Origin: Sphaerobacteraceae bacterium
GTDB taxonomy: Bacteria; Chloroflexota; Chloroflexia; Thermomicrobiales; Thermomicrobiaceae
Assembly: GCA_007695115.1 (NCBI GenBank)
Contig: REEK01000133.1
Location: 1-44,404, forward strand
DNA length: 44,404 bases
Direction of reading: 5' to 3'
Shown here: positions 15,263 through 20,787 of the stretch, piece by piece
Numbering within the stretch: the first letter of the stretch is position 1
Layout of the letters: the number at the start of each line of letters is the position of its first letter
Made by a program: the position numbers and the translations under genes
The notes under the pieces: model-generated
What the model was told of the DNA's origin: nothing
Seen by the model: the letters and a program-made list of their open reading frames with translations, nothing else
The model's database searches: none

Positions 15263-15857
15263 GGATTCACCGCAGATTCTGGGCATCACCGGAAACATCG
15301 CCTGTGGAAAATCACTGGTTTCTTCGATGCTCTCCGAACTGGGAGCCGACGTCATCGATGCCGATCTGGTTGCGCACGAGATCATGAAACCCGGCTCCGA
15401 AACCCTGGCCCGCATCGCCGAACGCTTCGGGCAGGATGTGCTCAACGAGGACGGTTCGCTCAATCGTCCGGCGCTGGGCGAGATCGTATTCAGCGATCCC
15501 GATGCGCTGGCTGATCTGGAAGCGATCACCCATCCGCGGACCGTCGAGGCCATTCTGGACCAGGCCAGAGCGAGCCAGGCCAGCGTAGTGGTGATCGATG
15601 CGATCAAGCTCTACGAGTCCGGCCTGAGCGATCATTGCCGGCGAACCTGGGTGATCATCTGTGATCCAGACATTCAGAAGCAGCGCCTGATCGATCGGAA
15701 TCAGATCACCGACGAAGACGCCGAACGACGAATCAGTGCCCAGCCACCACAGGAAGACAAAGTCCGTCGCGCTGACGCGATCATCGACAACAGCGGTGAT
15801 ATCGACGACACACGCGAGCAGGTGATCCTGGCCTGGAAATCCTTCAACGAATTCTGA
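15255..15857 (+). CDS. coaE: Dephospho-CoA kinase CoaE
   Basis: Phosphorylates the 3'-hydroxyl of dephospho-CoA, the last step of coenzyme A synthesis. The 200-residue product starts with the P-loop GITGNIACGKS (GK at 18-19). It has the CoaE acidic motif DADLVAHEIM, the ITHPRT segment typical of the CoA domain, and a lid region ending RRISAQPP. The product closes with the usual ADAIIDNSGDIDDTREQV segment. The ATG at 15255 lies inside the end of the ABC-F gene (8-base overlap), indicating translational coupling. Confidence 0.95.
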   Translation: MPEDSPQILGITGNIACGKSLVSSMLSELGADVIDADLVAHEIMKPGSETLARIAERFGQDVLNEDGSLNRPALGEIVFSDPDALADLEAITHPRTVEAILDQARASQASVVVIDAIKLYESGLSDHCRRTWVIICDPDIQKQRLIDRNQITDEDAERRISAQPPQEDKVRRADAIIDNSGDIDDTREQVILAWKSFNEF

Positions 15858-15995: not shown

Positions 15996-16024
15996 TGGTG
16001 TTTTGATGGAAGGAGCCGCCAATT

Positions 16025-16636
16025 ATGAGTCAGGCCACACGAGTGGAAGTCTGGTACGACTACGCGTGACCGTTTGTCTATACTGCAGCGGTCTTGCTGC
16101 AGAAGGCAAAGGAAGAAGACGACGCACTCGACATCGAGTGGCGCTACCTCTCTCTCGAACAGATCAATTCCAAAGAGGAAGATGACTGGAAGATCTGGGA
16201 GCAGCCGGCGAACTATCCGATGCGCAGTCGCTGGGCGTTCCGTGGAGCCGAGGCTGCCCGGAAGCAGGGGAAAGACGCGTTCGAGCGCTATCACCTGAAC
16301 ATGCTGAAGGCCCGCCACGTCGATCAGAAAGAGCTTACCGACGAAGACACGGTCTTCGAGGCTGCCAAAGAGGCAGGGCTCGACATGGATCAGTTCCGGG
16401 CCGATTTCGATGCGGCCACCATCGACAAGGTCGGAGCGGACCACGAGGAGGGTGTCGACAAATTCGGCATTTTCGGGACACCGACGATCGTCATCGATGG
16501 GGAACACGCCGGATACCTCAAGATGCGGCCACTTCCAGCCGATGACGAGCTCGGTGCGACCTGGCAACAGGTGAAGTCGATGATCGCTGGTCGCCCAGAG
16601 ATCGGTGAGATCAAGCGCCCAGTTCCACGCAAGTAA
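16025..16636 (+). CDS. DsbA-family thioredoxin-fold selenoprotein, Sec15 encoded by in-frame TGA
   Basis: A 203-residue DsbA/FrnE-like oxidoreductase if the TGA at 16067-16069 is read as selenocysteine. The start ATG at 16025 follows an excellent ribosome binding site (GGAAGGAG, 16008-16015). The first beta strand reads VEVWYDYA, then TGA, then PFVYTAAVLL. Relatives have a CPF or CPW active site here, so TGA replaces the nucleophilic Cys. The downstream frame is intact for 188 codons, with a helical insert and the cis-proline loop GTPTIVIDG (Pro153). It resembles the DsbA-like nitroreductase/isomerase group more than periplasmic DsbA: there is no signal peptide, so it should be cytoplasmic. 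No Cys occurs anywhere else in the protein. A SECIS-like hairpin directly follows the TGA. The alternative is a nonsense mutation or sequencing error of a TGC/TGT codon, but the hairpin and intact frame argue against it. Selenocysteine machinery genes are not in this window. Confidence 0.87.
16070..16112 (+). promoter_or_regulatory. Bacterial SECIS element
   Basis: This hairpin starts at the base after the TGA. The lower stem is CCGTTTGTC (16070-16078, one bulged G) with GGCAAAGG (16105-16112). An internal loop TATA/AA follows. The upper stem is CTGCAGC (16083-16089) with GCTGCAG (16096-16102), perfect over 7 bp. The apical loop is GGTCTT (16090-16095). The E. coli fdhF SECIS also presents GGUCU in its apical loop, about 18 bases after UGA; here the distance is 20. 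This is the binding site expected for the SelB elongation factor. Confidence 0.85.
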
Positions 16637-19679: not shown

Positions 19680-20787
19680 ATGATTGATAACCTGACTGTA
19701 GCCATCTCCACTGTGGTCGACCGACTCGACCAGATCGGAGCACGTCTTTGACTTGCCTACTAAACGGCAAGATCTGCGTGAACTAGAAGAACAGACCTCT
19801 GATCCGGAACTCTGGAACGATCCAGCGCACGCTCAACGCGTGATGCGCCAGTTTTCCGATCTCCGTGCTCAGATTTCGAAATGGGAAGAGCTTCGCCAGC
19901 AGGCCTCAGATCTGCAGGACCTCATCGAGATGACCGATGCTGAGGACGATATGCAGGCTGACCTGCAGGAAGAAGGAGCTAACCTGCTCCGTGAAGTCGA
20001 GCGTATGGAGCTTCAGCTCGTCCTGAATGGCCCGTATGACAACCACGATGCCCTGCTGTCAGTACATGCCGGCACAGGTGGGGTCGATGCCCAGGACTGG
20101 GCCGAGATGCTCATCCGGATGTATCTCCGCTGGGCAAGCAGTCAGGGATTCTCCAGTAAGGTGCTCGACCGGACTGAAGGCGAAGAAGCCGGTATCAAGA
20201 GTGCCACCATCGAAATCCGTGGCCCTTATGCCTTTGGCTATCTCCGGAGCGAGGCTGGCACGCATCGTCTGGTCCGGCTGTCACCATTTGACGCTGCACA
20301 CCGGCGCCATACATCCTTCGCGCTGGTGGAAGTGCTCCCAGAGGTCGACGACGCACCAGAGGTCGAAATTCGCGACGACGATCTCCGGGTCGACACGTTC
20401 CGGGCTTCAGGAGCTGGCGGGCAGCACGTCAACAAGACCGATTCGGCCGTCCGGATAACCCATTTGCCAACCGGCATCGTGGTCACCTGCCAGAACGAGC
20501 GGTCGCAGCTTCAGAACCGTGAGACGGCGATGAAGTTTCTCCGCGCCAAGCTGATCGAGAAGGCGCTGCGGGAACGCGAAGAAGAGCAATCGAAGATCAA
20601 GGGTGAACACATCGCATCCGGCTGGGGCAACCGTATCCGCTCCTACGTTCTGCAGCCATACACGATGGTGACCGATCACCGAACCGAGTTCAGCACCTCG
20701 AACGCGAACGGAGTTCTGGAAGGCGGTCTCGGTGAACTCATTGATGCCTACCTGCATCAAAAGCTCGGAGAGGACAATGACGCCTGA
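19680..20787 (+). CDS. prfB: Peptide chain release factor 2 (RF2), with programmed +1 frameshift
   Basis: RF2 recognises UGA and UAA stop codons and triggers peptide release. The gene has two overlapping frames. A 23-codon leader from the ATG at 19680 reads MIDNLTVAIS and ends CTT TGA (stop 19749-19751). Shifting +1 at CTT continues as D-LPTKRQDL in the main frame to the stop at 20787, about 368 residues in all. The main frame carries the stop-codon-reading SPF motif (RLSPFDAAHRRHTSFA) and the catalytic GGQ (GAGGQHVNKTDSAVRI). The joint is the classic RF2 site, so this is not a broken gene. Synthesis is autoregulated: low RF2 lets ribosomes pause at UGA and shift. The end overlaps the following metallopeptidase gene by 11 bases. 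Confidence 0.96.
19737..19752 (+). promoter_or_regulatory. RF2 programmed +1 frameshift site
   Basis: The slippery sequence CTTTGAC spans 19746-19752, with the in-frame TGA at 19749-19751. A Shine-Dalgarno-like GGAG (19737-19740) five bases before CTT should bind 16S rRNA and stimulate the shift, as in E. coli prfB. Confidence 0.93.

Follow-up and report, generated by a model that had tools for sequence, protein, structure and literature searches.

Selenocysteine-containing proteins with a DsbA-like fold have been described before. In a Sargasso Sea set the active site of such proteins reads UxxC (PMC1088965), and a 2026 catalogue of prokaryotic selenoproteins lists in its Table 1, apart from a UxxC form 1, a 'DsbA-like protein form 2' (PF01323, motif DxxUP, one Sec, example MDP6049977.1), which it credits to Peng et al. 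2016 and also calls 'crotonase/enoyl-CoA hydratase family protein' (PMC13188914). A single conserved Cys characterises DR2335 of Deinococcus radiodurans, a DsbA-like protein predicted to be cytoplasmic (PMC8945050). The structure of its C24S mutant exists (7dka), and no reported function of this protein was found in the literature search.

The gene analysed here is located in the genome of a Sphaerobacteraceae bacterium (GCA_007695115.1; family Thermomicrobiaceae in the GTDB lineage; 98.5% complete, 186 contigs), within a window, i.e. the whole stretch of DNA that was analysed, of 44,404 nucleotides of contig REEK01000133.1. The predicted product shares with the Sargasso Sea proteins (PMC1088965) a Sec at the thioredoxin-fold nucleophile and a bSECIS downstream of it, but the resolving Cys retained there is missing here (the motif is UPFV and the protein is devoid of Cys). 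With DR2335 (DR_2335; 7dk9/7dka) it has in common the whole-length fold, one nucleophile position, the lack of CxxC and a predicted cytoplasmic location; it differs in that Sec15 occupies the place of the Cys (identity of approximately 28%). Compared by its catalogue description, form 2 agrees in PF01323 and in the single Sec, and D12-Y-A-U15-P16 fits DxxUP. Judged by motif and Pfam domain, this kind of protein has very probably already been catalogued as DsbA-like protein form 2. The initial annotation had hinted at a variant new to Chloroflexota; the novelty is smaller than thought and has to be regarded as modest, since a TGA-containing DsbA-like family with the motif DxxUP is present in Table 1 of the catalogue (PMC13188914). 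No crotonase fusion was seen (by eye) in the upstream open frames of the 80 best related loci.

Table 1. Features of the DsbA-like locus (window coordinates).
Feature	Position	Strand	Remarks
Shine-Dalgarno sequence GGAAGGAG, serving ATG 16025	16008..16015	+	Conserved in same-genus orthologues
Predicted Sec-containing DsbA-like protein gene	16025..16636	+	203 aa by TGA read-through; stop TAA 16634-16636
In-frame TGA, predicted to encode Sec15 (nucleophile position of the thioredoxin fold)	16067..16069	+	Cys or TGA aligned in all relatives
Predicted bacterial SECIS hairpin CTGCAGCG-GTCT-TGCTGCAG	16083..16102	+	bSECIS model criteria, PMC13188914
Truncated ORF from TTG, lacking Sec15 and the first strand	16094..16636	+	180 aa; standard ORF caller
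GTPT, codons 151-154, cis-Pro loop of the thioredoxin fold	16475..16486	+	P153 invariant in 30 orthologues

The frame opens with 14 codons (ATG included), followed by TGA (codon 15), 188 sense codons and TAA, and read-through yields MSQATRVEVWYDYA-U-PFVYTAAVLL...IFGTPTIVIDG...RPVPRK, a product of 203 residues that lacks Cys. Translation thus bore out the initial annotation, which had proposed this frame with a single in-frame TGA at the nucleophile position, 188 open codons after it, a cis-Pro loop GTPTIVIDG (P153 of GTPT is the cis-Pro) and U15 as the sole Se/S nucleophile. ATG 16025 is most likely the translation start, because the Shine-Dalgarno sequence is placed 9 nt upstream and its motif and spacing are shared by three orthologues from the genus, two of them with diverged flanking sequence. 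The frame is not a product of chance, since the Pfam DSBA match crosses the TGA (residues 7-160, E 1.7e-18) and pN/pS 3' of the TGA is 0.17-0.18 (in comparison with two same-genus orthologues). As had been foreseen, a standard ORF caller starts at TTG 16094 and its product loses the active site. This call agrees with a reading in which the TGA is a true stop, the functional protein begins internally (e.g. at this TTG) and the upstream part is vestigial. However, such a protein would lack strand 1 and the active-site residue, while conservation extends to the upstream codons and the Shine-Dalgarno sequence, the codons between TGA and TTG (few sites) vary mostly synonymously, and the TGA aligns with an invariant Cys. 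Moreover, no Shine-Dalgarno-like sequence was seen before the TTG. A true stop is, on balance, highly improbable.

The AlphaFold2 model, built with 30 orthologues, has a pLDDT of 94, and the nearest solved structure is DR2335 (7dk9; Z 24.5, rmsd 1.8 over 194 residues, 28% identity). Together with the Pfam DSBA match, these indicate a whole-length thioredoxin fold with a DsbA-type helical insert, in which Sec15 superposes on the single conserved Cys (C24) of DR2335. The active site follows the pattern [CU]P[FYW] with one nucleophile, neither CxxC nor UxxC being present in the read-through protein, and the nucleophile is the sole C/U of the matched region in 69 of the best 80 relatives. No hydrophobic N-terminal segment was visible by eye, and strand 1 of the model starts at residue 5. 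The earlier assignment to the DsbA family holds for the fold (Pfam, DR2335), but not for DsbA proper (the periplasmic thiol:disulfide oxidase), which is ruled out by the missing CxxC/UxxC and the lack of a visible export signal; for the same reasons 'DsbA-like' describes the fold and not the role. The protein is best placed in a cytoplasmic, single-Cys, DR2335-like branch of the thioredoxin superfamily, distinct from CxxC DsbA. The NCBIfam search returned no family at its cut-off, and the DsbG-like NF041057 (Rcas_1661 thioredoxin-like selenolipoprotein) was rejected at 24 bits against a curated cut-off of 190.

Within a set of 60 relatives, most of which possess an orthologue, a TGA occupies this codon in all three same-genus genomes that have the gene, in four from a sister genus and in six from a different family of the order; all other orthologues have Cys. 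The alignment expected by the initial annotation, with Cys opposite the TGA, was also obtained for the best 80 relatives in a named public genome collection (44 with TGA, 36 with Cys, none with a third residue), nearly all of which belong to Chloroflexota/Thermomicrobiota, including SAR202. One TGA form (L080, Centralia_MAG_106) is labelled Proteobacteria, possibly as a result of horizontal transfer or mis-binning. The TGA form is also present in cultured Thermalbibacter longus CFH 74404 (L075) and in Candidatus Lucifugimonas marina JH1073 (L125), a complete SAR202 genome, the Sec sites reading YA-U-PYV or YT-U-PWV. On a maximum likelihood tree of 88 proteins, inferred with the Sec/Cys column masked, 8 Sec/Cys changes are needed, at least 5 of which are forced by well-supported branches. 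In an even sample of the phylum (301 genomes), the protein was detected in 26 genomes at E 1e-30 or better, and 4 of these 26 have the TGA. Judged from these sequences, the DR2335-like/Sec protein is widespread across Thermomicrobia and SAR202/Dehalococcoidia. The source genome is split into 186 contigs and the nearest named relatives are metagenome assemblies, which would suit a pseudogene in decay or an error of sequencing or assembly. However, further assemblies of the genus share this TGA, as do those of the sister genus, it recurs in more than 40 distinct genes (the cultured isolate and the complete SAR202 genome among them), and the pN/pS of about 0.18 is that of a constrained gene, making an error or pseudogene exceedingly improbable.

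A hairpin of 20 nt, with a stem of 8 bp and the GTCT loop starting 21 nt past the TGA (-11.5 kcal/mol), was predicted downstream of codon 15. It agrees with all four published bSECIS criteria (PMC13188914), and the fold of the wider hairpin region has a z of -3.4. A strict test, i.e. the perfect-stem version of the model with related sequences counted separately, was passed by 21 of 47 distinct TGA forms and by 0 of 41 Cys forms. Counted from the TGA, positions 17 and 30 can pair in 96% of TGA forms versus 34% of Cys forms, and positions 15 and 32 are T-A, G-C or C-G in TGA forms, with the reservation that amino acids constrain the same bases too. Approximately 2% of synonymous-codon shuffles of this gene reach the stability of the hairpin, which is a modest excess for one gene. 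One SAR202 subclass (with the motif UPWV) has an ATTTG loop, outside the bSECIS model. The Rfam scan of the window gave no match; Rfam is not expected to detect every bSECIS.

The absence of the Sec machinery from the genome had been named in advance as grounds for abandoning the selenoprotein reading. All components are present, each above its cut-off: selA (524 bits), selB (361 bits), tRNA-Sec with the UCA anticodon (74.7) and selD (367). The selD gene (L156:661-2043, contig C39) itself contains an in-frame TGA at the active site (AACAG-U-ASK), and selenophosphate synthetase is thus a predicted selenoprotein in its own right. SelB and/or tRNA-Sec were found in 14 of 14 TGA-form genomes (the source genome included); where one of the two was undetected, this may reflect the search threshold or fragmentation of the assembly. 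The near-complete relatives G026 (91%) and G034 (98%), both without SelB and tRNA-Sec, have the Cys form. UGA is read as Trp or Gly in rare bacteria, and a recoding of this codon as Cys or Trp by an altered code or suppressor tRNA was therefore weighed. It is very improbable, given that TGA otherwise serves as a normal stop here (coaE, just upstream, terminates in TGA 15855-15857, and release factor 2 has a UGA frameshift site), that the Sec system is complete, and that homologues have Cys at this position, never Trp or Gly. Codon 15 almost certainly encodes Sec, because the exchange of TGA and Cys at one codon, the bSECIS hairpin and the complete Sec machinery all support it, as does the predicted fold, which places the residue at the active site of a DsbA-family protein as originally claimed. 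Sequence itself shows the frame, the equivalence of Sec and Cys, the hairpin, the Sec machinery and the predicted fold.

In the proposed mechanism, SelB and tRNA-Sec would decode UGA codon 15 as selenocysteine, directed by the bSECIS hairpin downstream. Sec15, which faces the cis-Pro loop from the N-terminus of helix 1, would attack an oxidised substrate (candidates are a disulfide, a sulfenic acid, a peroxide or another electrophile), so that a selenenylsulfide or selenenic intermediate would form on it. As the protein has no resolving Cys, an external thiol partner, thioredoxin or a low-molecular-weight compound, is proposed to release the selenenylsulfide. It is very probable that codon 15 is read as Sec and that the enzyme has a redox role broadly of this type. 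For the narrower role that we infer from the architecture of the active site, that of a monoselenol reductase relying on an external thiol for its resolution, the chances are about even.

A Sec protein with a role other than disulfide or peroxide reduction is somewhat unlikely, although it deserves consideration. It could, for example, be (i) a kappa-class GST/HCCA-isomerase-like enzyme, binding and activating a low-molecular-weight thiol, or (ii) a mycothiol-type nitroreductase like Rv2466c, the mycothiol-dependent enzyme of Mycobacterium tuberculosis. The fold resembles human GST kappa (Z 17.1, below the 24.5 of DR2335) and Rv2466c (Z 17.9), the Pfam Rv2466c-like family matches residues 15-198 (2.3e-9), and MshA-like and MshC/CysS-like genes are present in the genome. 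However, the residue at this position is Ser in GST kappa and HCCA isomerase, Cys/Sec switching implies redox or nucleophile chemistry, and Rv2466c (identity of about 22%) has a second active-site Cys (C22) without counterpart here. No paper linking Rv2466c to selenocysteine was found in the literature search. The mycothiol assignments are ambiguous, both being below their cut-offs: the MshC-like gene reaches 383.7 bits against 485 and scores higher as cysS (413), and the MshA-like gene reaches 359 bits against 462.5. Mycothiol-like thiol synthesis in Thermomicrobiaceae is thus possible; for the bacillithiol route, BshC is absent from the genome. The MshC-like gene is a short CysS paralogue (L152:1516-2712, contig C91; 399 aa, 413 bits for cysS and approximately 382-383.7 bits for MshC), and the MshA-like glycosyltransferase (L153, contig C178; 359 bits) is located about 1.4 kb from selA.

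The monoselenol reductase proposal was also confronted with the gene neighbourhood. In Thermomicrobia, genes encoding an ABC-F protein and CoaE are located upstream of both the Sec and the Cys forms, and within the family an M50 protease is encoded downstream. The SAR202 neighbourhood consists of a different, housekeeping-looking gene set. No conserved functional neighbour was found, the adjoining genes being housekeeping. Upstream of a Cys form (L093 of the genome collection and L035 of the relative G045), no stop separates coaE from the DsbA-like ORF, with which it is in frame; in this one metagenome-assembled genome the two may be fused.

A redox enzyme that is widespread in Chloroflexota/Thermomicrobiota is therefore prone to systematic mis-annotation, because standard ORF calling cuts the gene at the TGA and the active site is lost. 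The Sec/Cys switches at this codon, of which there were at least five and probably some eight, constitute a natural series, suited to the question of what selenium adds to a thioredoxin-fold enzyme without a second Cys; it is strengthened by the fact that in Thermomicrobia both forms adjoin the same upstream genes. The occurrence of TGA forms in two named, cultured strains makes the prediction testable in native hosts. It is conceivable, though unlikely, that across Thermomicrobia and SAR202/Dehalococcoidia these proteins form a lineage-wide monoselenol enzyme of the DR2335 type, with repeated Cys/Sec exchange, selenium as the sole redox atom and a low-molecular-weight thiol as the partner; were form 2 of the catalogue a different subfamily, they would represent an undescribed selenoprotein subfamily. 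No paper linking SAR202 to a selenoprotein was found in the literature search.

Two further observations concern UGA codons in this genome. A second Sec candidate, DsbA/DsbG-like (L155:175-1071, contig C174), has an in-frame TGA at the nucleophile, a hydrophobic N-terminal segment and the motif DYQ-U-PGC (UxxC); judged by these features, it resembles the DsbG-like/NF041057 kind. Its start is provisional, a second TGA being placed near the beginning of the listed ORF. The prfB gene (release factor 2; 19681-20787 of the window, + strand) contains a classic programmed +1 frameshift site, CTT-TGA-C, at 19746-19752, and the start given by the ORF caller is TTG 19753, inside the gene. Two genes of this contig, prfB and the DsbA-like Sec gene, were thus cut by the ORF caller at a meaningful UGA.
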